Below are positions 6,440-26,809 of a stretch of 64,000 nucleotides of DNA, piece by piece. Each line of letters opens with the position of its first letter. Position 1 is the first letter of the stretch. The DNA comes from Gammaproteobacteria bacterium (GTDB lineage Bacteria; Pseudomonadota; Gammaproteobacteria; Steroidobacterales; Steroidobacteraceae). The stretch spans positions 1 to 64,000 of the forward strand of contig JANYJY010000001.1 in assembly GCA_025358295.1 (NCBI GenBank). The letters are read 5' to 3'. The position numbers and the translations under genes are program-made. The notes below the pieces were generated by a model. The model did not search any database. It was not told the DNA's origin and saw only the letters and a program-made list of their open reading frames with translations.

Positions 6440-6556
6440 TCAGCTGCGATTCTTGAGTCGGCAGTGGATGATCGTCTCGAGCTCATTTTCTCTCCCGGCC
6501 ACGGCCGCACCGATTCCGGAGCTCGCTCCTGTGATCACGATCACTTTGGTATCCAA
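6440..6556 (-). pseudogene. SDR remnant: N-terminal Rossmann fragment only
   Basis: A 38-codon frame starting at TTG (6556) with AGGAG seven bases upstream encodes KVIVITGASSGIGAAVAG, the unmistakable NAD(P)-binding start of a short-chain dehydrogenase/reductase. After ~21 residues the similarity ends and the frame stops at 6440, seven bases before the start of the membrane glycosyltransferase. About 220 residues of a normal SDR, including the catalytic YxxxK, are missing. It is read as the 5' stump left by a deletion. Confidence 0.6.
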
Positions 6557-6812
6557 CGACCGACTCCTGAATGCTGCGCCGTGCGCAACTATACTACTTT
6601 GCGCCGCGGCTCAGGCTTGTTCAATCGGAGCGCACGCCCCAGTCCTGAGGCGGATTCCTTCGATAACTGTTAACCTAGCTATCGCCTTTTCCCGTCGTCG
6701 ATTGCGCCACAACACGGAAGATGTGATCGTCTATGCAGTCCGCGGAAGTCTGGATCGGTAAGCTTGGCTTTTAGCGGGAATTCCAACTTGGCTGTGAATC
6801 CCACCCGTCGCT
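6557..6812. promoter_or_regulatory. Divergent intergenic region
   Basis: 256 bases between the SDR stump/glycosyltransferase (minus) and the flippase operon (plus). It should hold both promoters. No tRNA, repeat or convincing coding frame was seen and no box pair was clear enough to mark. Confidence 0.3.
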
Positions 6813-7775: not shown

Positions 7776-7864
7776 CCCAGTGCACAGTAGCGCTGTGTCT
7801 GGATCTCGACGGCACCCTGACCCAGGTCGATAGCCTGGGCATCACTGCGCTGATATCGATTTGA
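7772..7864 (+). pseudogene. Truncated HAD-type phosphatase (HAD-UbiA fusion remnant)
   Basis: A 30-codon frame begins with ATG overlapping the flippase stop and encodes MTQCTVALCLDLDGTLTQVD, the first motif (DxDGTL) of a HAD phosphatase, then stops at 7862-7864. In related operons the gene in this slot encodes an N-terminal HAD domain fused to a UbiA prenyltransferase that makes a polyprenyl-phosphoryl pentose. Here all but the first motif is gone, with the following gene starting seven bases later. This is a deletion stump rather than a small functional gene. Confidence 0.65.
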
Positions 7865-7870
7865 TGTGAC

Positions 7871-9187: not shown

Positions 9188-9200
9188 GGTTGCGCGAGAC

Positions 9201-9978: not shown

Positions 9979-10824
9979 TCAGGGAAAGTGCGTCTGCATC
10001 CAGCCCTTGATTCGGGCGAGCAGCTTCTCTCGGTCGGCGAGTGCCGTAAAGACGTGATCCGCCTTCTCGAAGTACTCAACCTCGATGCGAGGCTCTCCTC
10101 GCAACGTGGGGAACATGTCGTAGAACTGACCCGCGTAGTTGTTCGCGTGATCCGAACCGTAGCCGCCTGAGTAGACAAACAGCATGCTCACGCCGCGCGC
10201 CGCCATCGCCGTGTAGTTCTGCGCGAGCAGGTCTCGCGTTGGATAGCTCCGACTATAGATCTCCACCACTTCGCCGGCCTCGCGGATGTGGGGTCTCATG
10301 GCGGGAATGTAGCGGGCGAGTGTCCGTAGCCAGTAGCTATGCCAGAAACGCCTGGACCACGGCCGCTTGAGGTACCTGCGCGCGTAGAACTGCGGCGTCG
10401 GAAACGAATACCCCTCGATGAAAATCGCGCCAACCACGCGCGGATCCTCGATAGCCACGGCGTGCGCACTGTCCACGCCCGAGCAGAACCCCAGCTGCAC
10501 GAACTTTCGAGCGCCACTGCGATCCGTGAGAGCCTGCATCGCGTCCTGCACGTCGAGGATGGCCCGCTCGAGCTCTCTATGATTGTCGAGCCGCGACTCA
10601 CTGTCGCCCATGCCGGAGAGATCGAAGCGCAGCATAGAGTAGCCGACTTTGGCGAGATCCCGCGCGAGGCACACGTAAGATCGATACGGCCCGATTCGGT
10701 GGTTCAACCCGACATTCGACGCGATGATCACGGGAGCACCGGGACGCGCGACGGCCGGGTCCGGCTCCGTCAAAATGCCGACAATGGAGCCGCGCGGGCC
10801 AAACGTGTAGATCTTCTCGCGCAT
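9979..10824 (-). CDS. Alpha/beta hydrolase with Cys nucleophile (exosortase-system hydrolase 1-like)
   Basis: 281 residues. N-terminal SNVGLNHRIGPYR (~36-48), then RFDLSGMGDSES, and nucleophile elbow LGFCSGVDSA, i.e. G-x-Cys-x-G with Cys114, as in dienelactone-hydrolase-type enzymes; a late His lies in KADHVFTAL (~258-266). From memory of the families, this matches the 'exosortase A system-associated hydrolase 1' pattern. It is the last gene of the PKS/NRPS operon, six bases after the partner hydrolase. Because the assembly line lacks a thioesterase, this protein is a candidate for product release or editing (inference). Confidence 0.75.
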   Translation of the reverse strand: MREKIYTFGPRGSIVGILTEPDPAVARPGAPVIIASNVGLNHRIGPYRSYVCLARDLAKVGYSMLRFDLSGMGDSESRLDNHRELERAILDVQDAMQALTDRSGARKFVQLGFCSGVDSAHAVAIEDPRVVGAIFIEGYSFPTPQFYARRYLKRPWSRRFWHSYWLRTLARYIPAMRPHIREAGEVVEIYSRSYPTRDLLAQNYTAMAARGVSMLFVYSGGYGSDHANNYAGQFYDMFPTLRGEPRIEVEYFEKADHVFTALADREKLLARIKGWMQTHFP

Positions 10825-10830: not shown

Positions 10831-11601
10831 TCAGCCGAGGCGGTCCGCGATCGCGTTCAACATCGAGTTCGAGAGCAGCGCCGCCTGGAGCTCGTCGCTG
10901 CGGGGAGTGACGCTCTCCTCGGGAACAAGGTGAAACGTAACGTTCGCTGCGCGGCGAGCGAGTGACCGATGCAGATCGTGGAAAATGGGGCGATCCTCCG
11001 ACACCATGATGGCGATGCGGGCCGCCTTCGGCGCCTCCTCCTGCAGGAGGTTCAGACCACGTACCTCGTCCTCCAGCGCAACCGGTAGGGGGAACCCGAG
11101 CAGCTCGGGCGGACGCTCCATCGCTTGCCACGGTGGATGCAGATTGCGCTCCAGCTGACGCGCCTGGATGGTCTCGAGCTCGCTAAGGTAGATGCGTCCG
11201 TCGACGACGGGTTCCCAGAGGACAAGGTCGGTGAGCGAGAGTCCGGAAGTCGCGGCCAAGGCGGCGCCCAGCCGCAAGCCTATGGCTGAAATCTTGTTGA
11301 CAGCGGCAATGTCGCGCAGCTCCTGCGCCGCGGCGTTCACGTTGGCCCTCCACGTCGACAGCCTTCCCTCGTCACTAGCGCCCGCCGAGTCGCCCGTCCC
11401 GAAGTAGTCGAAGCGGAAGACATGAAACCCCTTTTTCGCGAGCATCGCCGCGAGCTTTCGAAATGCCCAGTGCGTTCGCATGTACTCTTGCGGTCCCGGA
11501 TAACTAAGTAACACGCCCACGTCCCGCTGCCCTGGGCCCACTGGAGGGTGATAGACGCCGAAGAGCGGCGCCTCGCTGCTGCCAAAAAAGCTGGGAGTCA
11601 T
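10831..11601 (-). CDS. Alpha/beta-hydrolase-fold protein with nucleophile replaced by Arg (hydrolase 2-like)
   Basis: 256 residues. Has the fold markers LLSYPGPQEYMRTHWAFRKL (~31-50) and FRFDYFGTGDS (~62-72), but the elbow reads IGLRLGAAL, so Arg110 occupies the place of the nucleophile. The same GLRLGA elbow is, as I recall, characteristic of 'exosortase A system-associated hydrolase 2'. It is therefore probably not a classical hydrolase by itself and may work as a partner of the Cys hydrolase encoded next. ATG overlaps the NRPS stop (ATGA, 11598-11601), indicating translational coupling. Confidence 0.7.
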   Translation of the reverse strand: MTPSFFGSSEAPLFGVYHPPVGPGQRDVGVLLSYPGPQEYMRTHWAFRKLAAMLAKKGFHVFRFDYFGTGDSAGASDEGRLSTWRANVNAAAQELRDIAAVNKISAIGLRLGAALAATSGLSLTDLVLWEPVVDGRIYLSELETIQARQLERNLHPPWQAMERPPELLGFPLPVALEDEVRGLNLLQEEAPKAARIAIMVSEDRPIFHDLHRSLARRAANVTFHLVPEESVTPRSDELQAALLSNSMLNAIADRLG

Positions 11602-14600
11602 TTCGAACGTACCGCCCCCGGTCGGCCGCGTATCTTTTCAATTACCTTCTTTATGAGGCGGCTGGCGCGAGAACCGTACCACGAGTTGGCAGATGCCGTG
11701 GAGGGGTAAGGGGATGAAGTCGGGCCACTATTGACTTCGGGCATGACCGGCAGGTGCGCGGCGACCTGCGCGAGCGTATTGAGGAGCAGCACTCTGGGGC
11801 TGAGTCGGACCCCGGTCCGCTCCTCGATCGCTGCTATCACTTTGAGCGACAGCAGTGAATGGCCGCCCACGGTGAAGAAGTTGTCGAGGGCCGAGACGCG
11901 AGACACCCCGAGGGCAATCCCCCAGATCTCGGCTACCAGGCGTTCCTGGGCCGTTCCCGGCTCGACGTGCGAATCGTCGAGGCGAGCCGCAAAGGGTGCG
12001 GGCAGAGCTTTTCTGTCGATCTTGCCGTTAGGCGTCAGGGGCAGCTCGGCGAGCTCCACGAAATGCTGCGGCAGCATGTAGTCTGGTAGAAACGCTCGGA
12101 GGTGACTGCGCAGCTCCGAGTCCGTGGCCTCCACGCCGGGACTCTTAGTTACGTATACAACCAGGCGGGCGTCGCCCACCCGGTCCTCACGCACCAGCGC
12201 GACGGCTTGCAGGACCGCGGGATGCCGCTCGAGCATCGTCTCGATCTCCCCGAGCTCGATTCGATATCCCCTGAGCTTCACCTGGCTGTCGTTGCGCCGC
12301 AGGTACTCCAGGCTGCCGTCCGCGAGCAACCGCACCACGTCGCCAGTGCGGTACACCCGCCCGCCCGTCAGGAACGGATCGGGAACAAACCGTTCTCCGG
12401 TCAGCTCAGGACGGTTAAGGTATCCGCGCGTCACGCCGTCCCCGCCTATATAGAGCTCTCCCGGCACTCCCATCGGGCAGAGCTCGCCATTACCGTCGAG
12501 CACGTAAATCTGGGTGTTCTGGAGCGGTCGCCCAATCCTCACTTGCTCGACCGGGGTCCGCAGCATGGAGCTGGTGCTCCAGACGGTGGTCTCTGTGGGG
12601 CCATACATGTTCCACGCCGAGTCGACTCGCTGCGCCAGCTCGTCCGCCAGATCACGCGGCACCGCCTCGCCACCGACGAGCGCAGTCCGAAGCTCCCCGG
12701 CTTGCAACCCCGCGGCAAGCAGCAACCGCCAGGTGCCCGGCGTTGCCTGAAGGACCGTCGCGCCCGTGTCGCGGAGACGGGCGAGAAGCCTATCGCCGTC
12801 CTCCGCCTCCTCTCGCGATGCGAGCGCGACTATGGCGCCCACCGAGAGCGGTAGCCAGAGTTCGAGGACGGCGATGTCGAACGAGAGAGTCGTCACCGCG
12901 AGAACGGTGTCCCGCTCGGCGACTCCAGGCGCCTTCGCGACGCTCGACAGGAAGTTCACGACGCTCCGATGCGGCACCATCACGCCCTTCGGCTTGCCCG
13001 TCGATCCAGACGTGTAGATCACGTACGCGAGCGCGTCTCCGACGGGCTCCGATGCCATCGGCAACGGCTCGGCCGTATAGCTCTCAGCGTCGTCCAGGCA
13101 CAGCACGTGGCCGTCGTGGGGCGGCATCGCGGACTCAAGCGAGTGCTCCGTCACGACGACCCGGAGGCCCGAGTCCTTCACCATGAACGCGAGCCGATCC
13201 GCCGGAAAAGCGGGATCGAGCGGAACGTACGCTCCTCCGGCCTTGAGCACGGCGAGCATGGCCACGAGCATCGCAGGGGTCCGCCCGACGAACAGGCCGA
13301 CCAGGTGGTCACGGCCCACGCCGAGCTCGCGCAGCCGCCGGCCGAGACGGCCGGCGCGCTCGTCCAGCTCCCGGTACGTCATACCAGTGCCCTGGAAGAT
13401 GATCGCCGTGCGTTCCGGGTGTTCGAGCGCTCGGCGTTCCACGAGCTGGTGAACGCCTGCTGCTCGCGGATAGTCCGCGCCGGTCTCGTTCACGGCGCGG
13501 ATCGCCCGTCGCTCTGCGTCGGGCAAGATGCAGATCCGGGCGATCGGCTGGGACGGATCCTCACACACGGAGGTGAGCAGCCGGCGCAGCTGCTTCACGA
13601 AGCGCGCCATCGTCGCCTGCTCGAATAGGTCCGTGGCGTAGTCGATGCCGCCCGTCAGCCCCTGCCCTGTCTCCTTCGTCCACAAGTACACGTCCGTCGG
13701 CGAGACCGGAGCGTGAACGTGAACTTGTGAATAGGTGAGATCGCCCACGTGCAGCGCGCGGTTCGAGACGTCCTGAAACGTGAAGAACGCCTGGAAGACC
13801 GGCGTCCGGCTCAAGTCGCGCTGCACGCCGAGGCGTTGCACGAGCAACTCGAACGGCATCTCCTGATGGCCGTAACCTTCGATGGCAACGCTCCGTACGC
13901 GCTCGAGGAGCTCCAGGAAGCTTAGGTCCCCCGACAGATCCGTGCGAAAAACGAGCGTGTTGACGAAGAAGCCGAGCAGATTCTCCGTCTCGGGCTGAGT
14001 TCGCCCCCGGATGGGGGTGCCCACGAGGACGTCTTCTTGACCGGTGTGCCGGTAGAGAAGCACCTTGAAGGCAGCCAGGAGCACCATGTAGAGCGTCGCG
14101 CCCGCACGACGACCGAGCGCCGTGAGCGCGTCCACCTCGGCCTTCGAGAGCACGAACGACTCGGTCGCGCCGCGGTGGCTGAGCTCGGGCGGACGCGGCT
14201 TGTCGGTGGGCAGCTCGAGGTTCGGCAGTTCCCCGCCGAGCTGCGCTTGCCAGTATCTCGCCTGACGCTCGAGTTCCTCACCGGCGAGGAAGTTCCGGTG
14301 CCATTCGGCGAAATCCTGATACCGAATTGGCAGCGGCGGCAGAGGCGACGGCAGCCCCTTGGTGAACGCAGCGTAGAGCTCATCGATCTCGCCGAGGAAG
14401 ACGTCGAACGACCAGCCGTCCCAGATGGCGTGGTGCGGCATCCAGAAGAACACGTGCTCTTCCTTTGCCAAGCGATACAGCGATGCGTGAACAAGCGGGC
14501 CGCGAACCAGGTCGAACGAAGCAGCAGCCTCGACACGGAGCCGCTCGAGAAGCTCAGCTTCACGCTCGGCGGCGGGCCGCTGCGAGAGGTCCACGAGCGG

Positions 14601-17600
14601 CCGCAGCGAGACCTGCAGCTCGGCCAGGATCTTCTGCACGGGCTCCCCCGCTTCGGCGTGAAACGTGGTTCGCGTGGCCTCGTGCCGCCGGACGATCTCG
14701 TTCACCGCCCGCTCGAGCGCGTCGATGTCGAGCTCCCCCTTGAGCCGAAAAGCGGATGGCAGGTTGTAGACGGCGAGCCCCGGATAGAGCTGCTCGAGCA
14801 GCCAGATGCGTTGCTGCATCAACGAGAGTGGCGCGGCACCCGACCCTGCGCGCCGCGGGATGCCGGCGGGTTTATCGGCCGCACCTGCCCCCTTCACCTC
14901 GCCGTCGACCAAGCGAGCGAGTCCCTCTGCGGTGGGGGATTCGAACATCCGGCGAAGCTGAAGGATGATGCCGTGATTCTGCTGCAGCCGCGAAAAGGCT
15001 TGAGCCGCGAGCAGCGAGTGTCCTCCGAGCTCAAAGAAGTTGTCGTCGATCGATACCCGCCGAACCCCCAGCACCTGCTGGAACACGTCGACGATCGCGG
15101 CTTCGGTAGGGCTCCGCGGCTCGCGCTGCTCACGTGCGTCGGCACCGTGATCGAGTTCCGGGAGCGGCAGCGCCTTCCGGTCGAGCTTGCCGTTGGGCGT
15201 GAGAGGAAGCGCGCCGAGCCGGACAAAATGCTGAGGCACCATGTAGTCTGGCAGATGCTTGCGCACATGCGCCCGGAGCTCCGTGTCGCTCGGACCTTCG
15301 ACCCCCTCGGGGACCAGATAGCCCACGAGACGCACGTCCCCCGGGAGTAGCTGGCGCAGCGCGACCGCCGCGTGTTTCACACCGGGCGCTATGGAAAGGC
15401 TTGCCTCGATTTCTCCCAGCTCGATGCGATACCCCCGCAGCTTCACCTGATTGTCGTTGCGCCGGAGATACTCGATGCTGCCGTCGGCGAGGTAACGCGC
15501 GAGATCTCCCGTCTTGTAGAGACGTGATCCCGGAGTGGAGGAGAATGGATCGTGCACGAAGCGCTCTGCGGTGAGCTCGGGCCGGTTGAGATACCCTCGG
15601 GTCACGCCGTCGCCCCCGACATGCAGCTCGCCGGGCACGCCGATGGGCACCGGCGTCATCCGCTCGTCGAGGATGTAGACCGTCGTATTGGCGATGGGCT
15701 TGCCAATCAGAATGCGGCCGGAGCCCGTCACTCGGTGGCAGGTGGACCAGACAGTGGTCTCGGTCGGCCCGTACATGTTCCAGAGGCTGCCCGCGCGACG
15801 CGTGAGCTCCCCGGCGAGGTCCCGGGGCAGCGCTTCTCCTCCGGCAAGGGCCTTGAAATGATTGTGACCCTTCCACCCCGCGCCGATCAGCAGGCGCCAG
15901 GTCGCCGGAGTCGCCTGCATGACGTTCACGCCCTGCTGCTCGATGGTGGCTCTGAGGAGCGCGCCGTCGGTGGCGATCTCGCGGGTGGCCAGCACGATCC
16001 GAGCACCGACCGACAGGGGTAGAAAGAGCTCGAGCACCGCGATATCGAACGACAGCGTCGTCACCGCGAGGAGCATGTCGCCGTGTTGCAAGCCAGGTTC
16101 CCGCGCCATCGATGTAACGAAGTTCACGACGGCGCGGTGGGGAACAGCGACGCCCTTGGGCTTGCCCGTCGATCCGGACGTGTAGATGACGTACGCGAGA
16201 TTCTCGGGTGTCGCGTCGTCCGCGCTACCGTGACCAAGCGATGCCGTGCTCTCTTTCAGGAGGGCCGCGGCTTCGGTGTCCAGGCAGAGCACGCGGGCCT
16301 CCGTGGACGGCAGCTGCGCGGCGAGCCGCGCTTCGGTCACGAGGACCGGCATCCGCGAGTCCGTCATCATGAACTCGAGGCGATCTCGCGGGAAAGCCGG
16401 GTCGAGCGGGACGTAGGCCCCGCCGGCCTTGAGAATGCCGAGGAGGCCCACGACCATCGCGATGGAGCGATCCACGCACAGTCCGACGAGAGTCTCACTT
16501 CTCACTCCCATCGCCCTCAGGCGATGAGCGAGGCGATTGGCCCGGACGTCGAGTTCTGCAAACGTGATGCGCTCGTCGCCGCACACGACGGCGACCGCGT
16601 CCGGGGTTCGGTTCGCCTGGTCCTCGAAGAGGCGATGGACCGCGATGTCCCGCGGAAAGTCCATGAAGGTGGCGTTCCATTCGTAAACGAGCCGGGCACG
16701 CTCCGCAATGGGCAGTATCGGGATCTCGCCGAGCGGGCAGGCGTCGTTCGCGACGAGCCCGCGAAGAATCTCCTCGTACGCCGAGAGCCAGCGGCGGATG
16801 GTGTCTTGCGCGAATAGATCCGTGTTGAACTGACACTCGAGCACGACGCGGCCGTCCATCTCGGCCGCGTTGATGAAGATCTCGAAATTCTCGAAGGAAC
16901 GCGGGTTGGATTGATAGGACGCCTTCAGGCCCTCGAACGCGAGCTCGTCCCCGCTGACGGCCTGATCGACGTTAAACAGCACCGAGACGAGCGGCAGCCG
17001 ACTCGGGTCGCGCGAGATCTGGAGCCTCTTGATCAGGCTCCCGAACGTCAGGCGCTGGTGATCGTACGCGTCGAGCATCGTCGTGCGCAGTTCGCGCAGG
17101 AAATCCGAGAACTTCTGCGTCGAGTCCACCTGCGTGCGAAGCGGGAGGGTGTTCACGCAGTGGCCTACAAGATCCGGCTGCCCGGTCACGGATTGCCCGG
17201 CCGCGGGGATGCCCACGATGACGTCGTCGTCCCCGGAGAGACGCGCGACAAGCACGTAGAAGGCGCCGAGCATCGTGGTGAAGAAGCTCGCACCCGCCTT
17301 CGCACCGGCCTTCTTCACGCGCTCGACGAGCGCGGGCTCGAGGACGTAGTCCTCGCGCAGCGAGGCGTAGGTTTTCGCCGGTGGGCGTGCGCCGTCGAGC
17401 GGCAGCTCGAGCGTGGGCAGGGTACCGGAGAGCTTCTTGAGCCAGTAGCGCTCCGATGCCGCATATTCCGGGCTGGCCTCGAAAGCGCGGTCGTCCCGCG
17501 CGTACGTGCTAAACGGCGTGGCGGCTGAAAGATCGGCAGCGACCCCCCGACGACGCGCGGAATAGAGGACGCAAACGTCGCGAAGCAACACGGCCATCGA

Positions 17601-18101
17601 CCATCCGTCGCAGACGATATGGTGGGCGGTGAACGTCGCCAGGTGACGGTGCTCCCCCAGCCGGACGAGTTCGGTGCGAAAGAGCGGACCTTGTTCGAGC
17701 CGGAAAGGCGCCTCGACTTGCCAGGCGAGGATGCCGCGAATCTTGGCCTCACGCTCGCGCGCGTCGAGATCGCGGAGGTCGGTGCGAGTCACGGGCACCG
17801 CGAGGCGCACCGCGACACACAGCGTCAGTCCGTCCGAGCTGAACGTGGTCCGGAGTGCTTCATGGCGCATCACGAGATCTTGGATGGCCGCCTCGAACGC
17901 CGCCGGATCCAGGTCACCCTCGAGCGTCAACGTGACCGACTCGTTGAACGCGGCGGACGCGTCGTCCCCCATCTGCACCGCGGTCCAGATCTCTCGCTGC
18001 GCCTCCGTGGACGGAGCGGTGGCAGCCAGCTCAGGAGCCGCAAAAGGGTCGAAGTCGACTTCGCGAAGCAAGTGCCCGCGACTCACCTCGCTCGTGCTCA
18101 A
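11598..18101 (-). CDS. Non-ribosomal peptide synthetase, C-A-PCP-C-A-PCP
   Basis: 2167 residues, two elongation modules. C1 ~30-465 (HHIVCDGWS, catalytic His ~161); A1 ~485-985 (YTSGSTGKPKG, YGPTETT, GYRIELGEIE, NGKLDRKALP); PCP1 with GGHSL (Ser1029); C2 ~1090-1530 (HHAIWDGWS); A2 ~1555-2020; PCP2 with GGHSL (Ser2082). No epimerase, methyltransferase, reductase or thioesterase follows; the last ~40 residues are a Ser/Pro-rich linker ending in a basic helix. By-eye ten-residue codes against GrsA are D-I-L-Q-L-G-M-V-W-K for both A domains, the pattern usually assigned to glycine. TTG start overlaps the stop of the upstream PKS gene (TTGA), so the order A-PCP-KS-AT-ACP-AMT then C-A-PCP-C-A-PCP is one line. 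Confidence 0.95.
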   Translation of the reverse strand: MSTSEVSRGHLLREVDFDPFAAPELAATAPSTEAQREIWTAVQMGDDASAAFNESVTLTLEGDLDPAAFEAAIQDLVMRHEALRTTFSSDGLTLCVAVRLAVPVTRTDLRDLDAREREAKIRGILAWQVEAPFRLEQGPLFRTELVRLGEHRHLATFTAHHIVCDGWSMAVLLRDVCVLYSARRRGVAADLSAATPFSTYARDDRAFEASPEYAASERYWLKKLSGTLPTLELPLDGARPPAKTYASLREDYVLEPALVERVKKAGAKAGASFFTTMLGAFYVLVARLSGDDDVIVGIPAAGQSVTGQPDLVGHCVNTLPLRTQVDSTQKFSDFLRELRTTMLDAYDHQRLTFGSLIKRLQISRDPSRLPLVSVLFNVDQAVSGDELAFEGLKASYQSNPRSFENFEIFINAAEMDGRVVLECQFNTDLFAQDTIRRWLSAYEEILRGLVANDACPLGEIPILPIAERARLVYEWNATFMDFPRDIAVHRLFEDQANRTPDAVAVVCGDERITFAELDVRANRLAHRLRAMGVRSETLVGLCVDRSIAMVVGLLGILKAGGAYVPLDPAFPRDRLEFMMTDSRMPVLVTEARLAAQLPSTEARVLCLDTEAAALLKESTASLGHGSADDATPENLAYVIYTSGSTGKPKGVAVPHRAVVNFVTSMAREPGLQHGDMLLAVTTLSFDIAVLELFLPLSVGARIVLATREIATDGALLRATIEQQGVNVMQATPATWRLLIGAGWKGHNHFKALAGGEALPRDLAGELTRRAGSLWNMYGPTETTVWSTCHRVTGSGRILIGKPIANTTVYILDERMTPVPIGVPGELHVGGDGVTRGYLNRPELTAERFVHDPFSSTPGSRLYKTGDLARYLADGSIEYLRRNDNQVKLRGYRIELGEIEASLSIAPGVKHAAVALRQLLPGDVRLVGYLVPEGVEGPSDTELRAHVRKHLPDYMVPQHFVRLGALPLTPNGKLDRKALPLPELDHGADAREQREPRSPTEAAIVDVFQQVLGVRRVSIDDNFFELGGHSLLAAQAFSRLQQNHGIILQLRRMFESPTAEGLARLVDGEVKGAGAADKPAGIPRRAGSGAAPLSLMQQRIWLLEQLYPGLAVYNLPSAFRLKGELDIDALERAVNEIVRRHEATRTTFHAEAGEPVQKILAELQVSLRPLVDLSQRPAAEREAELLERLRVEAAASFDLVRGPLVHASLYRLAKEEHVFFWMPHHAIWDGWSFDVFLGEIDELYAAFTKGLPSPLPPLPIRYQDFAEWHRNFLAGEELERQARYWQAQLGGELPNLELPTDKPRPPELSHRGATESFVLSKAEVDALTALGRRAGATLYMVLLAAFKVLLYRHTGQEDVLVGTPIRGRTQPETENLLGFFVNTLVFRTDLSGDLSFLELLERVRSVAIEGYGHQEMPFELLVQRLGVQRDLSRTPVFQAFFTFQDVSNRALHVGDLTYSQVHVHAPVSPTDVYLWTKETGQGLTGGIDYATDLFEQATMARFVKQLRRLLTSVCEDPSQPIARICILPDAERRAIRAVNETGADYPRAAGVHQLVERRALEHPERTAIIFQGTGMTYRELDERAGRLGRRLRELGVGRDHLVGLFVGRTPAMLVAMLAVLKAGGAYVPLDPAFPADRLAFMVKDSGLRVVVTEHSLESAMPPHDGHVLCLDDAESYTAEPLPMASEPVGDALAYVIYTSGSTGKPKGVMVPHRSVVNFLSSVAKAPGVAERDTVLAVTTLSFDIAVLELWLPLSVGAIVALASREEAEDGDRLLARLRDTGATVLQATPGTWRLLLAAGLQAGELRTALVGGEAVPRDLADELAQRVDSAWNMYGPTETTVWSTSSMLRTPVEQVRIGRPLQNTQIYVLDGNGELCPMGVPGELYIGGDGVTRGYLNRPELTGERFVPDPFLTGGRVYRTGDVVRLLADGSLEYLRRNDSQVKLRGYRIELGEIETMLERHPAVLQAVALVREDRVGDARLVVYVTKSPGVEATDSELRSHLRAFLPDYMLPQHFVELAELPLTPNGKIDRKALPAPFAARLDDSHVEPGTAQERLVAEIWGIALGVSRVSALDNFFTVGGHSLLSLKVIAAIEERTGVRLSPRVLLLNTLAQVAAHLPVMPEVNSGPTSSPYPSTASANSWYGSRASRLIKKVIEKIRGRPGAVRSK

Positions 18102-21100
18102 GAAATCTCGACCTTCATGTACTTTCCCTGTTCGGCCGGATTCGGCACGAACCAGGCGGGATTGCCGCTGGGATCACGACCGAGACGGGCACCGGGGATC
18201 GGCGGCTTGCCCGCGTCGAACGCGGCAGGCACTTCCGCCCTGCGCGGCGCTGCGTGAAAGAAACCGGCTTCCTGCATCTCGTCCACGCTCTCCCGAAACG
18301 CGACGATTATGCGGTCGACGTCCGCATCCGTGTGAGCTTCCGTCAGGAAGCAGGGAAACCCGTCCCAGATGTGGATGCCTTTGTGCCTGAGAAAGCAGAA
18401 GAGCAAATCCTGCATCGGCTGCTCCTCGACGTGGAACGCCTTCCACAAGGACCCGAAGTGCTTGATCTTGATGGGCGCGCCCACCTTCTCGAGGTGTTCG
18501 TTGATCGTCGCCGCGAGGCGATCGGTACGCGCGTTCATCTCTTGCTGAAGGCTCGGCCCGCGCGCCTTCATGTGCTCGAGCGTCGCTTTCGCCGCGATCA
18601 TGGCGAGCGGATGCCGGACAAAGGTCCCGGCGAAGTAGGTGACTCCGACCGTGGGCACCGAGTCGTCCCCGAACTGCCAGGCCCCGCCGTCGAGGGCGTC
18701 CATCCACGCGGCCTTCCCCGAGATGACGCCGAACGGCAGGCCGCCGCCAACAACCTTGCCGTAGGTCACGAGATCGGCCCGGACACCGAAGTGCGCCTGT
18801 GCGCCGCCCGGATGAATGCGAAAGCCGGTGATGACTTCATCCCAGATGTAAGCGCACTCGGCTTGCTCGGTGACGCCGCGAAGCTCGCGTAAAAACTCCA
18901 CGGGGTGGAAATCCGGGCGACGGCTCTGTACAGGTTCCACCATGACCGCGGCTAGCTCGTGCGCGCGCTCCTTGATGATCGCCATTGATTCAGGCGTGCC
19001 GTAGTCGAGCACCAGAACGTTCTCCACGCTCTCCGGCAGAATGCCGGGTGCCGCAGGGATGGAGCGGAGGCGCTTCGTCCCGCGCACGATGACCTCGTCG
19101 AAGATGCCGTGATACGAACCGCTGAAGAGGGCGATGAGGCTGCGGCCGGTGACAGTGCGGGCGATGCGCATCGCGCCCATGACCGCTTCGGACCCCGTGT
19201 TGCAGAACGCGGTTCGGTCGTTGCCCGTCATTTCGCAGATCAGGCGCGCGCAATCGCCCACGATCGGCTGCATCGGGCCGATCTCGTAGCCCGCGTCGAT
19301 CTGCGCTTTGAGCGCCTGCGCGACCACCGGAGATGCGTGCCCCAAGAAATTCGAGCCGAAGCCATTGAGAGCGTCGATGTACTCGTTGCCGTCGATGTCC
19401 CATATCCGCGAGCCCGCGGAGCGCACCGCGACGATGGGATAGACGAGTTCCTTGATGACAGGACGAAACCCGTTCACGACCCGCGGATCGGCCAAAACGC
19501 GCCGGTGCTCTTCGGTCCAGGCCTTGGACCCCTTCGTCTTCTCGTTGTAGCGCCGCGAGAACGCCGCAAGCGCGTCCCGCTGAGCGGCGGAGAGCGCGTC
19601 GTCGCCGCCGGTGTGGATGCGAGCGATGGCTCCGAACGCCTTCTTGGCGTCGTACTTGACGACGCCAATGGGTTCGTCCCCCTCGAGGTACGGCGAGGCG
19701 CTCGGCGGTCCGGTGTGTTCTGCCGACGAGGGGACGGCTGTCCCGTTGAGAAGTTCGAGCTGCTGCTGCATCAAGCGCAGCTGTGTTTCCACGACGTGCT
19801 GGATGGTTCCCGGGTCTGCCGCGCCCGCGCTACCACGAACGAGCAGCGCAAGCGCCGCGGGGACCACGGCCGGCTCGGGCTCCGCGGGCAGCACCTGAAT
19901 CAAGTGAGCGGCGAGGCGATCGAGATTGCCGAGATCCTCCAGCAACTGGCGGAATCCGATGGTGACGCCCAGCTGCTTCTTCAAGGACATTGAGATCTGG
20001 GTGAGAAAGAGCGAGTCGAGTCCGAGCTCCAGGAAGGTCATGCTCGGGTCCGCGTCGGCGAAATCAACTCCTGATGCTTCCTCTAGAAGCACCTTGAGCT
20101 TCCCAATGATGCCTGCCTTGCGAGTCGCACTCGCGGAACCTGTCGAGGTCTGCATACTTTTCGCCTTGTCCGTGTGAGTCCGCGCGTGTCCGGTGGTATC
20201 AGGAGCGGCCGAATGCGCGGGGCCGCAAGCGCGTGCGGGGAGAGGATCTAGCCAGTGACGCTGCCGCTCGAACGGATAGGTGGGCAGCCGGATGCGCCGT
20301 CGTACCTCGTGCTGGTATAACTGTCGCGCGTCGATGGCGACGCCCGCGAGCCAGAGCTGCCCTATTGCCGCCAAGAGCGCGGTCCACTCGGCGTCGTCCT
20401 CAGCGGTATCTGCGAGTGACGACACGGCCACCTGACGCGCCTTGTCCGTGATTTGCTGGCGGGCGAGTACGGCAAGCGTCGTGCGGGGGCCCACCTCGAG
20501 CAACACACGCCCGGGCTCTTTCCAGGCCTCGGCCACCGCCTCGGCGAAGCGAACCGTCTGCCGGAGATGCCGGGCCCAGTACATGGGATCGGTGGCAAGC
20601 TCGGCAGTGATCGGAAGGGCCGTCACCGTGGAGATGAAGGGAATCCTCGGCGGGGACAGGGGCATCGACCGAGCGAGCAGGAAAAAAGGCTCCACCGCCG
20701 GCTCCATCATGGGCGAATGGAACGCGTGCGACGTGTGGAGCGACTTGCAGACGACGCCTTCGGCTTCGAGCTCTCCTTGAAGACGATCGACGGCGTCGGT
20801 TGGCCCCGCAACGACACAGAGAGTCGGCCCGTTGCTCGACGCGATGGCGAGATCGCCCGAGAGGCGCGGCTCGATCGTCGCCGCGGGAAGTCTGACGGAG
20901 AGCATCGTTCCCGCGGGCAACGCCTGCATGAGCCGCCCTCGGGCCGCTACGAGAGAAAGAGCGTCCTCGAGCCGCATCACGCCGGACAGCACGGCGCACA
21001 CGAATTCGCCGATGCTGTGGCCCACCATGAGACTCGGACGTACGCCCCAGCTCATCCAGAGGCTCGCGAGGGCATATTCCAGCGTGAAGAGGGCAGCCTG

Positions 21101-24100
21101 CGTGAACTCGGTGCGGCGGAGCGTCGCCGCCGCCTCTTCGCTCCTCGGCTCCGACGGGTAGAGCACCGTACGCAGATCGCACCCGAGGTGAGGCAAGAGA
21201 ATGTCCGCGCACTGATCAACGATCACGCGGAATGCCGGCTCGTCCCGGTAGAGATTCGCGCCCATGCCCACGTATTGCGCCCCTTGGCCCGGGAACAGGA
21301 ACACGACCGGCGGATCCCGCCTTTCGGTTGCTCTCTTGGCGGACCGACGGGGATCGAGGCTCGCAAGAGTGGCGGACGCGTCGCGGGCGTCGGACGCGAC
21401 GACGTACCTTCGGTGCGAGAATGCGCGACGGCCTGCGTGCAGCGTGTACGCCACGTCCGCAAGGCTCACGTCGGGATGTTCGCGCAGGAACACGCCGAGG
21501 TTGGCGGTGGCCGCTTCGAGCGCGCTCTCCGTGCGCGCCGAGAGCAGGAGGAGCTGTCTCGGGCGGGACGGGGAAGAAGCAGGCTGAACGGGGGCCTCCT
21601 CAACGATGACGTGTGCGTTCGTGCCCCCGACGCCGAACGAGCTGACACCGGCTCGGCGTGGCGCCGCGCTGCGTGGCCATGGTGTCGCTCTCGCGACAAC
21701 GTAAAACGGGCTCTTCGAAAAATCGATGCTGGGACTCGGTTCCCGAAAGTGAACCGTCGGGGGGATGAGCTCGTGCTCGAGGGCGAGGACGATCTTGACG
21801 AGGCCCGCCACGCCCGCCGCGGCAGTGAGGTGCCCGAAGTTGCTCTTGATGGACCCGATGCCGCAAAATCCGGTGTCTTCGGTCTTTTCCCGGAAGGCCA
21901 AAGTGAGCGCCTCTACCTCGATGGGATCGCCGAGCGGCGTGGCCGTCCCGTGCGCTTCCACGTACGAGATCGAACGAGGGTCGACGCCGGCCAGCGCCTG
22001 CGCGGCCGCGATGACTGTCGCCTGACCTTCGACGCTCGGCGCCGTGAAGCTCACTTTGCTCGCGCCGTCGTTGTTCAGAGCAGCTCCCCGGATGACGGCG
22101 AGGACGGTGTCGTGGTCGGCGCGCGCGTCCGAGAGCCGCTTCAGCACGACCATCGCCGCGCCGTCGCTGAACGTCGTTCCTCGGGCGCCTGCGTCGAACG
22201 AGCGGGTGTGACCGTCGTCCGAGAGCATCCCGCCCTCTTGGTAGAGATGGCCGCTCTTCTGAGGCACGGTGACTGACGCGCCTCCGGCGAGCGCCATGTC
22301 GCAGTCGCCGGCAATGAGGCTGCGCACTGCCGTGGCGATGGCGACGAGTGACGTCGAGCATGCGGTGTGAATGCTGAGTGCGGGTCCCGTAAGGTTCAAC
22401 TTGTAAGCGATACGCGTCGCGACGTAGTCCTTCTCGTTGGCGGCCATCGTGGTGAAGGCGCCTACCCGCTCGATCACGTCGGGACGAGGCTGCACAGTCG
22501 TGACGAAATACGAGTTGTTGTGAATTCCGGCGAACACGCCGACGGCTCCGGAAGTGGTCTCGGGCGCGTAACCTGCGCTCTCGAGCGCCTCCCAGGCGAC
22601 CTCGAGGCCCACACGCTGCTGAGGATCCATGACCTCGGCCTCCTTAGGGCTCATGCCGAAGAAGGCCGCGTCGAACCGATCGGCGTCCGCGAGCACGCCC
22701 CGCCTCCGCACATAGGTCGGGTCGGCGCGCTCGGCGTCCGAAACGAGAAGATCGAGATCGCCGTCGGCAAAAGACGTCGTGGTGTCGATCCCCCCCTTAA
22801 GCACGTCCCACAGCTCGCCGATGGTTCGCGCTCCCGGAAACCGCCCGGCCATCCCCACGATGGCGACGGCGTCGCCCTCCCCATCCGTACCCGATGCCAC
22901 TCGACGCAGGCGAGTCGCCGCTGCCGCGAGACGGCGGCTCTTGCCTCCCCCCTCGAGGTACGAAGCAAGCTCGCTCACGGTGGGGTGAGCGAACAGCTGC
23001 ACTACCGGGAGCTGGATCAGCTTCTCCTGGCGCAGACGGGCAATGGCTTGCAGAGCAAGGAGCGAGCTGCCGCCGAGGTCGAAGAAGTTGTCGAAGACGC
23101 CGACGCGATCAATCTTGATGAGCCGCGCCCAAAGCGCGCACAAGACCTCCTCGAGTTCCGTCCGCGGCGCGATGTAACTAGTCTCAAGCTCCGGCCGCTT
23201 GCCTTCCGGCCGGGGTAAAGCCCGACGGTCGACCTTGCCGGTCGGCGTTCGGGGGAAATCCCGGACGACGACGAAGACCGAAGGAAGCATGTACTCCGGA
23301 ACCGCGCCGCCCAGGTGCCGCCGCAGCTCGTTCGTGAGGCCGGCATCGGAGCCGAACGGAATCACGTAAGCAACGAGCCGCTTGTCGCCCGGATCGTCCT
23401 CGCGCGCGACAACGACTGCCTGGCGCACCAGCGGGTGTGCGCCGAGGGCCGCCTCGATTTCGCCGAGCTCGATCCGGTAGCCTCGCACCTTCACTTGGTG
23501 GTCGAGCCGCCCGAGAAACTCGACATTGCCGTCTGCACGTGTTCGCGCAAGATCCCCGGTCCGATAGAGCCGCGCCGCGGGATCGCCCGAAAACGGATCC
23601 GGGACGAACCGCGCCGTTGTCAGGTCGGGGCGATACAAATAACCGCGTGCCACCGAGACCCCACCCAGGTATATCTCACCCTCCTCGCCGGTTTGGACGG
23701 GCCGCATGGCGTCGTCGAGCAGGTGGACGGCAGCGCCATCGATTGCCTTGCCTATCGGAGGGAGTGACGGCCAGGTGCTCGGAGCGCCCTCGAGCGTGTA
23801 CGCCGTGACCACATGCGTCTCGGACGGGCCGTAGTGATTGTGCAGCGTGCAAGACGGAAGTTGCTCGAAGAATCGGGCGAGCGACTGGGTGACGAGCAGC
23901 TGTTCACCGGCCGTGATGACTTCACGAAGGCTTCCGGGAACGAGCTGCTCGGCAATCGCCACGTCCGCTAGGTTCTGCAGCGCGACGAAGGGCAAGAAGA
24001 TCCGCGCCACGCGCCGTTCGTGAAGCAAGCGGAGCAGTTTCCCGGCGTCGAGCCGCAGAGTGTCGTCGACGAGGACGAGTTCGCCACCCGCGGCCCACGT

Positions 24101-24826
24101 CGCGAACATTTCCTGGAAATGCACGTCGAAGCTAAGCGGCGCGAACTGAAGAGTCCTCTGCCCGGCACCCACGCCCGAGTTCGCGAGCTGCCAGACAATG
24201 AGATTGGCGAGACAGCCCCGCGGCATCGCCACGCCCTTCGGCGTACCCGTCGAGCCCGAGGTGTAGATGACGTAGGCAAGATGTAAAGACGTCGCCGTGT
24301 CTACCAGTCGTTCAGCCGACTCCTTGAGGATTTCGGCGGAGCGCGCGTCCACACAGACGACTTCCGCGCCGCCACCCGGAAAATCCGCGGCGAGGCGCGA
24401 GGTCGTGAGGAGCACGGGGGCTTGGGTGTCCTGCAGCATGAACGCCAGCCGGGAGCTCGGGTAGGACGGGTCGAGAGGTGCGTAGGCCCCGCCCGCCTTG
24501 AGCACGGCGAGCACGGCCACTGTCATCTCGATCGATCGATCGATGGCGACGCCCACGAGGACGTCGGGACCGATGCCGCGAGCGCGTAGGTAACGCGCCA
24601 GACGGTTGGATCGGGCGTCCAGATCGGCGTAAGTGATCCTAGCCTCGGCGTACGACGCCGCCACGGCGTCCGGAGTGCGGTCGACCTGTCGCTCGAACAG
24701 CTCGGGGAGACGCGGCAAGGTTTGGGTGGGCATGGCGAACCAGTTTATCGGAATCTTTCGGCTAACACGGCCCCCCCAAGCCCTACGAAATATATCAGGA
24801 GGAGTTTCAAAATCGGCAGCAACCAC
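18098..24826 (-). CDS. Hybrid NRPS-PKS: A-PCP-KS-AT-ACP-class III aminotransferase (MycA-like architecture)
   Basis: 2242 residues. Loading A ~40-545 (YTSGSTGTPKG, HYGPSETH, NGxGKVDRRALP region); PCP (GGSSL, Ser588); KS ~650-1080 (HTACSTS Cys823, EAHGT His959, NFGHL His999); AT ~1172-1500 (GHSIGE Ser1271, HAFH 1367-1370, the malonyl-type motif); ACP (GLDSL, Ser1605); helical linker ~1660-1695; PLP aminotransferase ~1790-2190 (DEVITGF, Schiff-base Lys2024 in YGKVVGGG). No KR, DH or ER, so the beta-keto group should go straight to the aminotransferase, as in MycA/ItuA, but here an A-PCP replaces the acyl-ligase loader. By-eye A code D-V-Q-F-I-A-H-V-V-K suggests proline. Start: GTG 24826 or, perhaps better, ATG 24733 (residue 32), directly before the A domain; numbering is from the GTG. 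The C-terminal tail looks like a docking linker. Confidence 0.95.
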   Translation of the reverse strand: MVAADFETPPDIFRRAWGGRVSRKIPINWFAMPTQTLPRLPELFERQVDRTPDAVAASYAEARITYADLDARSNRLARYLRARGIGPDVLVGVAIDRSIEMTVAVLAVLKAGGAYAPLDPSYPSSRLAFMLQDTQAPVLLTTSRLAADFPGGGAEVVCVDARSAEILKESAERLVDTATSLHLAYVIYTSGSTGTPKGVAMPRGCLANLIVWQLANSGVGAGQRTLQFAPLSFDVHFQEMFATWAAGGELVLVDDTLRLDAGKLLRLLHERRVARIFLPFVALQNLADVAIAEQLVPGSLREVITAGEQLLVTQSLARFFEQLPSCTLHNHYGPSETHVVTAYTLEGAPSTWPSLPPIGKAIDGAAVHLLDDAMRPVQTGEEGEIYLGGVSVARGYLYRPDLTTARFVPDPFSGDPAARLYRTGDLARTRADGNVEFLGRLDHQVKVRGYRIELGEIEAALGAHPLVRQAVVVAREDDPGDKRLVAYVIPFGSDAGLTNELRRHLGGAVPEYMLPSVFVVVRDFPRTPTGKVDRRALPRPEGKRPELETSYIAPRTELEEVLCALWARLIKIDRVGVFDNFFDLGGSSLLALQAIARLRQEKLIQLPVVQLFAHPTVSELASYLEGGGKSRRLAAAATRLRRVASGTDGEGDAVAIVGMAGRFPGARTIGELWDVLKGGIDTTTSFADGDLDLLVSDAERADPTYVRRRGVLADADRFDAAFFGMSPKEAEVMDPQQRVGLEVAWEALESAGYAPETTSGAVGVFAGIHNNSYFVTTVQPRPDVIERVGAFTTMAANEKDYVATRIAYKLNLTGPALSIHTACSTSLVAIATAVRSLIAGDCDMALAGGASVTVPQKSGHLYQEGGMLSDDGHTRSFDAGARGTTFSDGAAMVVLKRLSDARADHDTVLAVIRGAALNNDGASKVSFTAPSVEGQATVIAAAQALAGVDPRSISYVEAHGTATPLGDPIEVEALTLAFREKTEDTGFCGIGSIKSNFGHLTAAAGVAGLVKIVLALEHELIPPTVHFREPSPSIDFSKSPFYVVARATPWPRSAAPRRAGVSSFGVGGTNAHVIVEEAPVQPASSPSRPRQLLLLSARTESALEAATANLGVFLREHPDVSLADVAYTLHAGRRAFSHRRYVVASDARDASATLASLDPRRSAKRATERRDPPVVFLFPGQGAQYVGMGANLYRDEPAFRVIVDQCADILLPHLGCDLRTVLYPSEPRSEEAAATLRRTEFTQAALFTLEYALASLWMSWGVRPSLMVGHSIGEFVCAVLSGVMRLEDALSLVAARGRLMQALPAGTMLSVRLPAATIEPRLSGDLAIASSNGPTLCVVAGPTDAVDRLQGELEAEGVVCKSLHTSHAFHSPMMEPAVEPFFLLARSMPLSPPRIPFISTVTALPITAELATDPMYWARHLRQTVRFAEAVAEAWKEPGRVLLEVGPRTTLAVLARQQITDKARQVAVSSLADTAEDDAEWTALLAAIGQLWLAGVAIDARQLYQHEVRRRIRLPTYPFERQRHWLDPLPARACGPAHSAAPDTTGHARTHTDKAKSMQTSTGSASATRKAGIIGKLKVLLEEASGVDFADADPSMTFLELGLDSLFLTQISMSLKKQLGVTIGFRQLLEDLGNLDRLAAHLIQVLPAEPEPAVVPAALALLVRGSAGAADPGTIQHVVETQLRLMQQQLELLNGTAVPSSAEHTGPPSASPYLEGDEPIGVVKYDAKKAFGAIARIHTGGDDALSAAQRDALAAFSRRYNEKTKGSKAWTEEHRRVLADPRVVNGFRPVIKELVYPIVAVRSAGSRIWDIDGNEYIDALNGFGSNFLGHASPVVAQALKAQIDAGYEIGPMQPIVGDCARLICEMTGNDRTAFCNTGSEAVMGAMRIARTVTGRSLIALFSGSYHGIFDEVIVRGTKRLRSIPAAPGILPESVENVLVLDYGTPESMAIIKERAHELAAVMVEPVQSRRPDFHPVEFLRELRGVTEQAECAYIWDEVITGFRIHPGGAQAHFGVRADLVTYGKVVGGGLPFGVISGKAAWMDALDGGAWQFGDDSVPTVGVTYFAGTFVRHPLAMIAAKATLEHMKARGPSLQQEMNARTDRLAATINEHLEKVGAPIKIKHFGSLWKAFHVEEQPMQDLLFCFLRHKGIHIWDGFPCFLTEAHTDADVDRIIVAFRESVDEMQEAGFFHAAPRRAEVPAAFDAGKPPIPGARLGRDPSGNPAWFVPNPAEQGKYMKVEIS

Positions 24827-25121: not shown

Positions 25122-25973
25122 ATGCCTCCTTTGCTGCAACTGGGCGACGCTCCGTTCGACCTTGACGACATCACCGGCATCCACCACGAACTCGCGGGCC
25201 ACCCGCTCTTGGCGCTACCGAAGCTGCGCGCGCTGGCCAATCGGCTGCAGACGGTCCGCTACCACTCAGGAAAGCTTGCCGCCACCGACTCGTTCGAGCA
25301 CGCCGCCAAGGAACACCCCAACGGCCTGACCATGGACCAGACCATCGAGGACCTCGAACACGCGGGGTCGTGGGTCTACTTCTCCCACATCGAGTCCGAC
25401 CCCGAATACAAGCCGCTGGTCGACGAGGTGCTGGACTGCGTGCAGTCGCAGCTCCCCTCCGGATCGGGTCCGCTCCTCTTGCGGGCCGGATGGGTGTTTC
25501 TCTCCTCGCCCGGCGCTGTGACGCCGTACCACATGGATCACGAGCAGAACTTCCTGCTCCAGATTCGCGGGTCGAAGATCATCAACGTCTGGGATCCGCG
25601 CGACCGCAGCGTGGTCAGCGAGAGCGAGTTGGAGTCGTTCCACGCGACCTACACCCTCAAGGAGACGAAGTACCGCGAGGAGTTCCAACCCCAGGCGCGC
25701 GTTTTTCACGCCAACAGCGGCGAGGGCGTGTACATGCCGTTCACCGCACCGCACTGGGTGACCAACGGGCCGGAGGTGTCGGTGACCTTCAGCTGCACCT
25801 TCGTCACGCCGCAGGCGCTGCGCGAGGGGCAGGCATTTGCCGCCAACCACAAGCTCCGGCAGCTGGGGATCTCGCCCAAGCCGGTGGGCAGTTCCCCCCT
25901 GCGGGACTCGCTCAAGGGCCAAGTGCTGCGCGCCTGGAAGTCGACGCGCGGGAGCATCGCCAAAAAGCCCTAG
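25122..25973 (+). CDS. JmjC/cupin-type Fe(II)/2-oxoglutarate dioxygenase-like protein, copy 1
   Basis: 283 residues. A double-stranded beta-helix core shows the facial triad: TPYHMDHEQNF (His137, Asp139) and FTAPHWV (His211). The surrounding WVFLSSPGAVTPYHMDHE and LQIRGSKIINVWDP are typical of cupin_8/JmjC-like small-molecule or protein hydroxylases. It is 45% or so alike by eye to the gene at 26809-27681 (shared order LAGHPL, ESDPEY, YTLxET, MPFxAPHWV). Divergent from the PKS/NRPS operon and convergent (4-base overlap) with the hydrolase gene that ends at 25970. A role in hydroxylating the peptide product or its amino-acid precursors is plausible but inferred. Confidence 0.75.
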   Translation: MPPLLQLGDAPFDLDDITGIHHELAGHPLLALPKLRALANRLQTVRYHSGKLAATDSFEHAAKEHPNGLTMDQTIEDLEHAGSWVYFSHIESDPEYKPLVDEVLDCVQSQLPSGSGPLLLRAGWVFLSSPGAVTPYHMDHEQNFLLQIRGSKIINVWDPRDRSVVSESELESFHATYTLKETKYREEFQPQARVFHANSGEGVYMPFTAPHWVTNGPEVSVTFSCTFVTPQALREGQAFAANHKLRQLGISPKPVGSSPLRDSLKGQVLRAWKSTRGSIAKKP

Positions 25974-26809
25974 CGCGGCAGCAGCGAGCGGTCGAAGAAG
26001 TCGCGCAGGCCTGCCACGTAGCGCTCCTTGAGGACACGGCCGAATTCGCCGTGGCCGGCGCCCGGCACCGGCCAGAGCTGCTTGGGCTCAAAGGCTGCGT
26101 CGAAGAGCGCCTTGCTCATAGCGAAGGGGATGACTTGGTCTTCCGTGCCCGCGATCACCAAGAGTGGCCGCCCCGCGAGCATCGCGGCCGCCTGGCGCGA
26201 GTCGAGTTCTTCCACCCGATAGCCGGCGCGACGGGCGCCGACCCGGGCTGGCCACTGCGCGATGGGTCCCCAGCGCCGATATTCGTAGTCCAGGTGCTCG
26301 CGGGCGCTCGCATAGGGCGACAAGAGGGCGATGGCCGCGAGGCGCGGGTCTCTGGCCGCGGCCTGGAGCAGGACACCGCAGCCGCTGGAGAAGGCCTGCC
26401 CGCCCAGGTGCAAGACGCCCGGTTGCGCGGCGAGAAACTCGACGCCTGCCTCCACCGCGCCCACGGCCAGCGGCGCCCAGTCAACTCCGCGCCGGCCGTC
26501 CAGCGTAGGCAGGTCTATGAGCAGCGCGCCAAATCCGTTGGCGACTGCGTCGCTCGCCTCGGGCCACGCTTGATCGCGCGAGGCACCCCAACCGTGGACG
26601 TAGATGATGGCGGCGCCGTTGCGCGAAGGCACATACCAGGCGGCCATGCTGCCGATCGCGATCACGCGAATCGAAGGCGATGGCGGCGGCGGCGCGGGCG
26701 CACGCGAGCCATCGGCGTCGGCTTCAGCACGGTAAGCGCGGTAGCCGATCCCCCCCGCGGCGAGGGCGGCGACGCTCGCGCCAGCGAGCAGGAAACAGGC
26801 CGCACGCAT
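25970..26809 (-). CDS. Secreted or membrane-anchored alpha/beta hydrolase
   Basis: 279 residues from ATG 26809, chosen because this ATG overlaps the TGA of the preceding gene (TGATG) and gives a clean hydrophobic N-terminus (MRAACFLLAGASVAALAAGG); a longer form from 26842 is possible. Then an alpha/beta-hydrolase core: IIYVHGWGASRDQAW (oxyanion His-Gly), nucleophile region GGQAFSSGCG (Ser in A-F-S-S-G), acid-containing GTEDQVIPF and His in GAGHGEFG. It resembles the serine-aminopeptidase/BAAT-like hydrolases of the periplasm. Coupled to JmjC copy 2, so the two may act together. Confidence 0.75.
   Translation of the reverse strand: MRAACFLLAGASVAALAAGGIGYRAYRAEADADGSRAPAPPPPSPSIRVIAIGSMAAWYVPSRNGAAIIYVHGWGASRDQAWPEASDAVANGFGALLIDLPTLDGRRGVDWAPLAVGAVEAGVEFLAAQPGVLHLGGQAFSSGCGVLLQAAARDPRLAAIALLSPYASAREHLDYEYRRWGPIAQWPARVGARRAGYRVEELDSRQAAAMLAGRPLLVIAGTEDQVIPFAMSKALFDAAFEPKQLWPVPGAGHGEFGRVLKERYVAGLRDFFDRSLLPR

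Follow-up and report, generated by a model that had tools for sequence, protein, structure and literature searches.

A proline-loaded PKS-NRPS assembly line with an embedded aminotransferase and a candidate trans-acting hydrolase pair in a Steroidobacteraceae genome

Results

A two-protein assembly line that ends without a thioesterase

The window analysed here, a stretch of 64,000 nucleotides at the start of contig JANYJY010000001.1 from a Gammaproteobacteria bacterium of the Steroidobacteraceae (assembly GCA_025358295.1), encodes on its minus strand a hybrid polyketide synthase (PKS)-nonribosomal peptide synthetase (NRPS) assembly line made of two large proteins. Protein 1 (18098..24826, 2242 aa) has the order adenylation (A), peptidyl carrier protein (PCP), ketosynthase (KS), acyltransferase (AT), acyl carrier protein (ACP) and aminotransferase (AMT), and protein 2 (11598..18101, 2167 aa), whose frame shares 4 bases with that of protein 1, consists of two condensation (C)-A-PCP modules and stops after the last PCP with no thioesterase (TE). 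An earlier interpretation of this DNA, made from the letters alone (the sequence-only reading), had given both open reading frames at exactly these coordinates, although translation of the loader protein may start at Met32 (about 24733) instead of the GTG at 24826. Pfam matches above their cut-offs placed the A domain of protein 1 at residues 44-531, the PCP at 561-624, the KS at 653-1143, the AT at 1175-1495 and Aminotran_3 at 1796-2152, with a second carrier between the last two, and found C, A and PCP twice each in protein 2, again with every match above its cut-off. On the DNA, the loading A domain spans 23234..24697 (minus strand) and the class III AMT domain 18245..19585 (minus strand), with the lysine for pyridoxal phosphate (PLP) in TYGKV at 18752-18766.

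The catalytic motifs are intact in the KS (TACSTS, EAHGT, NFGH), the AT (GHSIGE and HAFH) and the AMT (TYGKV and EPVQSRRPD); the four carriers read LGGSSL, LGLDSL, LGGHSL and VGGHSL, and the two C domains HHIVCDG and HHAIWDG. The domain order and the intact motifs of the sequence-only reading are thus borne out. So is its statement on missing domains, as far as the two proteins themselves are concerned: the Pfam scan of either protein found no TE, ketoreductase (KR), dehydratase, enoylreductase or third Condensation-type stretch, and no epimerization domain is present in cis.

The line is predicted to build a proline-derived diamino acid followed by two glycines

Alignment gave the specificity code DVQFIAHVVK for the loading A domain and DILQLGMVWK for both A domains of protein 2. 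Among solved structures, the best single-A-domain match of the loader is tyrocidine synthase 2 (453 bits), whose first module we take to activate proline. HAFH in an AT is a mark of malonyl specificity, so that the AT is of the malonyl type. According to a 2025 survey, Val236 and Gln239 occur in 59 of 71 proline A domains, and DILQLGMIWK, from which the window code differs by one residue, is a glycine code on record (PMC12283262). Alignments to PDB structures gave no decision for glycine. The proline-like loader, the two glycine-type modules and the AT specificity, which the sequence-only reading had proposed or had named as a check, agree with these results.

The loading A domain would activate proline and pass it to the first PCP, and KS-AT-ACP would add one malonyl unit to give a 4-amino-3-oxo acyl-ACP, whose ketone would reach the AMT unreduced because there is no KR. 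From this substrate the embedded AMT would make a 3,4-diamino acid by turning the ketone into an amine, namely 3-amino-3-(pyrrolidin-2-yl)propanoate, held on the ACP as the amino counterpart of proline statine, and the two C-A-PCP modules would append one glycine and then another. Domain order, codes and HAFH therefore make proline, malonate, amination, glycine, glycine the plain prediction. With substrates and stereochemistry alike taken as predictions, the product is probably 3-amino-3-(pyrrolidin-2-yl)propanoyl-Gly-Gly, an aminostatine-like unit with two neighbouring nitrogens at the head of a short peptide, for which a hand calculation gives C11H20N4O4 and 272.15 Da if the chain is hydrolysed; the same structure had been proposed before, and order, codes, AT and AMT homology support it as a prediction.

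The AMT aligns over nearly its full length with the mycosubtilin AMT structure 6kfm (432 bits) and keeps the PLP lysine, whereas the next-best family, the glutamate-1-semialdehyde aminomutases, reaches 181 bits or less. As a class III AMT that follows an ACP and carries the PLP lysine, it has the features of a PKS-embedded enzyme for beta-amino acyl chains. The MycA/ItuA and McyE lines likewise have a class III AMT after KS-AT-ACP, but they load a fatty acyl or polyketide chain and arrive at a mono-amine, whereas an amino acid loader as in the window would lead to neighbouring nitrogens. The acyl-ligase loader of the MycA/ItuA type is absent: the Pfam A domain and its amino acid code rule out a FAAL/CAL loader. 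The detoxinine pathway is statine-like in that an amino acid is joined to one malonyl unit and the ketone is reduced to an alcohol. In the pepstatin statine pathway an amino acid is likewise extended by one malonyl unit with chemistry at the beta-ketone, but there a separate F420-dependent reductase converts the ketone to an alcohol, whereas the window line has an AMT and no reductase domain (PMC12081711).

The assembly type is widespread

From a homologue scan of named genomes, the best 80 loci were kept and fetched. In most of them the match covers the whole length of protein 1, with the best segment 42-61% identical. They usually run A-PCP-KS-AT-ACP-AMT and then C-A-PCP modules; the stretch up to the AMT may be a single protein or be divided after the first PCP. 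Among the 77 relatives with a readable loader code, 42 codes are DVQ (proline-type), 20 are valine-type, 5 are what we take to be threonine-type and 10 are of other kinds. By their record titles, AMT loci loaded with an amino acid span Bacteroidota, Cyanobacteria, Proteobacteria, Myxococcota, Acidobacteriota, Planctomycetota and Verrucomicrobiota, and related lines lie on plasmids of Variovorax, Rhizobium, Sinorhizobium and Spirosoma. Those on large Rhizobium and Sinorhizobium plasmids (H5-H10, H12-H15) are about 43% identical, several of them from legume hosts or nodules, and the Variovorax plasmids L114 and L115 carry A-PCP-KS-AT-ACP-AMT with a 2OG-Fe(II) oxygenase upstream and two TIGR04325 methyltransferase genes downstream.

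A close counterpart is found in Corallococcus carmarthensis (L005), which has the same two proteins, with the codes DVQFVAHVVK, DILQLGMVWK and DILQLGMVWK, and the same hydrolase genes as the window, two downstream (hydr2 and hydr1, see below) and one upstream. The window groups with this locus in a quickly built tree of AMT domains (81 in all; SH-aLRT 88, below the tool's mark of 95). The genus relatives have a different, split line and fall elsewhere in the tree. A search of the source genome for 16S rRNA gave no match, and the GltX protein, compared among 21 named genomes, stands at 57% to Luteibacter and Lysobacteraceae, 55% to Rhodanobacter and 53% to a betaproteobacterium, which points to a gammaproteobacterial host. 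The six fetched Pedobacter relatives have a TE-sized tail after a single C-A-PCP module; the window line has no cis TE at its end. To our knowledge no product of this build has been characterised, and none appears among the papers listed in the literature searched. In a 2013 survey, A-CP-KS-AT-CP-AMT is tabulated for Pedobacter heparinus C6XWU5, by tabulated order the same domain order in one protein with an NRPS module next, and the product given, Nrp-Mal-Gly-Pk, is a prediction for which no isolated compound is listed (PMC3870968, Table 2). That entry and the Corallococcus locus overturn the suggestion of the sequence-only reading that no pathway of this build had been described, and together with the 80 homologous loci they rule out that the build is unique. 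The assembly type is widespread and, as far as found, chemically uncharacterised, and its parts are ordinary PKS-NRPS parts.

A pair of alpha/beta hydrolases tracks the loss of the thioesterase

Directly downstream of protein 2, on the same strand, lie two genes for alpha/beta hydrolases, hydr2 (10831..11601, overlapping the NRPS gene by 4 bases) and hydr1 (9979..10824). The 76 fetched loci that have an AMT fall into 55 whose last NRPS protein carries a TE-sized tail, 10 in which it has no such tail, 9 in which it is cut off and 2 that end at the AMT protein; all nine of the TE-sized tails tested are PF00975. In the fetched flanks, homologues of hydr2 and/or hydr1 turned up at six TE-less loci but at no locus with a TE-sized tail (6/10 against 0/55, Fisher 2.5e-6). 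Five of the six (L005, L044, L051, L063 and L068) have both genes, and the sixth, L028, has only hydr2, at the end of a contig. At the level of whole genomes, a hydr1-profile match (E 1e-12 or better) was present in 10/10 TE-less but in only 1/14 of the TE-bearing genomes searched; in eight of the ten TE-less genomes, line and match share a contig. In the TE-bearing exception, Bradyrhizobium rifense, the match stands beside a separate, TE-less NRPS (L135, 4540-12650), in which C-A-PCP-C-A-PCP without any PKS is followed by hydr2 and hydr1 (GLCSG); the hydrolase pair would therefore serve more than one type of NRPS line.

In hydr1 the nucleophile motif GxCSG has cysteine in all six sequences compared (GFCSG, C114, in the window), a later histidine (H257) is invariant, and beyond the next strand all six carry an acidic residue (Asp or Glu; Glu in the window copy). 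An AlphaFold2 model from six sequences (pLDDT 79) shows an alpha/beta hydrolase with C114 at the elbow between strand 108-113 and helix 116-126, and its nearest neighbours by fold are esterases and lipases. In hydr2 the nucleophile position is Arg or Gly, with no Ser or Cys, in 7/7 sequences (GLRLG in the window). The best NCBIfam models are those of exosortase-A hydrolase 1 for hydr1 (TIGR03100, 86 bits, cut-off 168) and exosortase-A hydrolase 2 for hydr2 (TIGR03101, 85 bits, cut-off 203), scores that rule out membership of these curated families for both genes. True exosortase-A hydrolases 1 have GLCD in 12/12 copies examined, drawn from 30 genomes carrying one among 196 genomes of the order, and the cysteine is therefore common to both groups. 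The exosortase-A hydrolases also resemble hydr1 and hydr2 in forming a tandem pair with the cysteine in hydrolase 1, and most aligned copies of hydrolase 2, like hydr2, have no nucleophile.

A cysteine nucleophile is in keeping with an enzyme that picks up a carrier-bound chain and hands it on, be the acceptor water, an amine or a hydroxyl. Since the last protein of the line has no TE, the adjacent pair is a candidate for off-loading in trans, in which hydr1 would take the chain off through its cysteine and hydr2 would be a catalytically silent partner. The earlier statement that the line has no release domain stands for the two proteins in cis but not overall: the two adjoining hydrolases and their tracking of TE loss rule out that a candidate release enzyme is missing. 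We infer that what is new in this line is the replacement of a TE by a trans-acting pair related to exosortase hydrolases.

Weighing the reading against its alternatives

Taken as a whole, the proposal that a proline-loaded line makes a diamino-acid-Gly-Gly peptide which the adjacent hydrolase pair off-loads in trans has, in our estimate, a probability of about 0.55. Several observations weigh against it. The ten-letter codes are predictions only; the Variovorax loci L114 and L115, in which the last NRPS stops shortly after a PCP, appear TE-less and have no hydr homologue in the 35-38 kb of plasmid fetched; in L031 and L028 the hydr1-profile match and the line stand on different contigs, although hydr2 still adjoins the line in L028, and in L016, L024 and L027 the match shares the contig yet lies 20-25 kb from the line. 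In addition, the 14 TE-bearing genomes were hand-chosen from the 55, and the TE-less counts are not independent because the TE-less relatives partly form one clade in the AMT tree.

Where chemistry on the chain is concerned, the AMT might act as an internal aminomutase that shifts the amino group of the loader to C3 and leaves a 4-oxo group, so that no diamine is formed. The substrate, an alpha-aminoketone, would resemble glutamate semialdehyde, and the AMT belongs to the superfamily of the glutamate-semialdehyde aminomutases; it is, however, far nearer to the mycosubtilin transaminase in alignment score, and the secondary amine of the proline ring cannot form a normal PLP aldimine, which makes the idea better suited to the 20 valine-type relatives than to a proline-loaded line and, here, very improbable. 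Less remote, but still unlikely, is that the codes, being predictors only, mislead, and that the loader takes a proline-like acid (pipecolate, azetidine carboxylate or hydroxyproline) or protein 2 another small residue: the two azetidine-carboxylate codes in the 2025 survey start D-V-Q and D-M-Q (PMC12283262), but the loader code keeps the proline pattern throughout and all three codes are almost unchanged in Corallococcus. As to release, the thioester might be resolved without the pair, either by a general type II thioesterase or by an intramolecular aminolysis that yields a lactam or diketopiperazine, the hydrolases then being proofreaders only. The predicted chain would offer a free secondary and a free primary amine for attack, and esterases and lipases are the nearest neighbours of hydr1 in sequence as well as in fold; against this, the pair tracks TE loss and not the presence of an NRPS as such, and we regard this route as possible but clearly less probable than off-loading by the pair.

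A similarly tentative alternative is that the peptide is not set free, and that hydr1 and hydr2 attach it to a sugar in an exopolysaccharide associated with an exosortase, the line being a polysaccharide-decoration system. It draws on the kinship of the pair with exosortase-A hydrolases 1 and 2 and their common cysteine, on an EpsL-like exopolysaccharide outer-membrane protein gene at the left end of the window (90..1346, minus strand; TIGR03014, 194 bits, cut-off 275), which may be associated with the line, and on scans of 12 genes at 1.5-27.7 kb with Pfam and NCBIfam, which name no transporter except a flippase-like protein. In Luteibacter (L027) the line stands within an XrtA/PEP-CTERM exopolysaccharide locus. 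Upstream of the line is an EpsB_2 transferase, whose 561 bits exceed the cut-off, and downstream a TIGR03088-like glycosyltransferase (below cut-off) together with genes that, by their sequence, seem to encode more glycosyltransferases, an O-antigen ligase and a deacetylase (the probe-gene names O-antigen ligase, deacetylase and GT2 are readings of sequence, not family matches); about 20 kb from the line lie a chain-length determinant, a Tyr autokinase, a PEP-CTERM outer-membrane protein, hydr2 and hydr1, named by best models below cut-off, and, next after hydr1, GalE above cut-off. Homologues of this set occur in the same order in Rhodanobacter (L016), where the outer-membrane protein alone was scanned with models. 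In three of the four fetched genus relatives (L110-L112), the genes next to the split line include a WcaJ transferase and an aminotransferase of the nucleotide-sugar type, and the regulator beside these lines has GlrR, not the PEP-CTERM model, as its best match (models run on L112). An initiating sugar transferase (PF02397) was found within 20 kb in at least 13 of the 48 genomes counted among the 80 loci, against 1.4 expected at random, near matches being a lower bound for line and control alike. Other NRPS clusters, hand-grouped from 21 genomes picked as positive within 40 kb, gave at least 1/15 within 20 kb (p 0.16) and, against at least 21/48 for the line, at least 2/15 within 40 kb (p 0.04, a slight excess); since the line does not significantly exceed NRPS clusters at large within 20 kb, glycan decoration is ranked below the main reading. 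No exopolysaccharide probe matched in the fetched flanks of Corallococcus L005, which has the same genes, or in genus relative L113. In the source genome itself, a contig of 5.9 kb (C5) has WcaJ and, with scores below cut-off, EpsE- and EpsF-like genes; the exosortase is on another (C55), both contigs are distinct from the window contig (C1), and the compared end 400 bases gave no shared words of 15-25 bases that would join C1 to C5 or C55. The fuller version, in which an aminostatine-type tripeptide, instead of being secreted, would end up on an exopolysaccharide of this type by way of a cysteine hydrolase and its silent partner, with the pair common to NRPS lines and XrtA loci, is a shade more doubtful still.

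Other genes in the window

Upstream of the line lie two cupin_8/JmjC oxygenase-like genes, both with HxD...H intact (25122..25973, plus strand, a probable tailoring enzyme, and 26809..27681, minus strand), which flank on both sides an alpha/beta hydrolase gene (25970..26842, minus strand) whose homologue stands directly upstream of the Corallococcus line. Cupin homologues above 125 bits occur in 11 of the 80 loci, including those of Nostoc, Rhodanobacter and Bradyrhizobium, and in genus relative L110, and none was found in the fetched flanks of Corallococcus L005. JmjC-type cupins may hydroxylate a carrier-bound residue, and a hydroxylated residue is plausible because the cupins keep HxD...H and have homologues in the loci of relatives. 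A 4'-phosphopantetheinyl transferase (PPTase; 2922..3671, minus strand), with homologues in L049 and three of the four fetched genus relatives, probably serves the carriers. A PAF-AH/dienelactone-hydrolase-like gene (1489..2880, minus strand) has homologues near the line in 7 of the 80 relatives, six of them within about 1.1 kb after the last NRPS and one, in L011, upstream. The sequence-only reading was right on the two megasynthases but missed the hydrolase pair, the two cupins, the PPTase and the EpsL-like gene.

Between the PPTase and hydr1, a group of genes at 4823-9938 looks like a polyprenyl-phosphate pentose pathway: a DprE1-like oxidase (327 bits, cut-off 500), a DprE2-like short-chain dehydrogenase/reductase (177 bits, cut-off 250) and the flippase-like LPG-synthase-TM protein at 6813-9938 (plus strand), and a weak PMT_2-type match at 4823-6433 (minus strand). 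Farther from the line, 31635-36392 (minus strand) encodes a protein of 1585 aa in which CHB_HEX_C_1 and Fn3_assoc occur six times each, and the GC content of the gene is low at the first codon position. At 36555-39433 (minus strand), SCO1/SenC and a PCuAC copper chaperone adjoin a protein that matches Cu2_monoox_C slightly below cut-off.

Discussion

The aminostatine-type scaffold is familiar from synthetic aspartic-protease inhibitors. If lines of this build make 3,4-diamino acids, as predicted here for the proline-loaded one, such a scaffold would be a common natural unit. The results on hydr1 and hydr2 would, in turn, give a testable role to a pair that family models name only by the company of exosortases, and tie it to carrier-bound chains.

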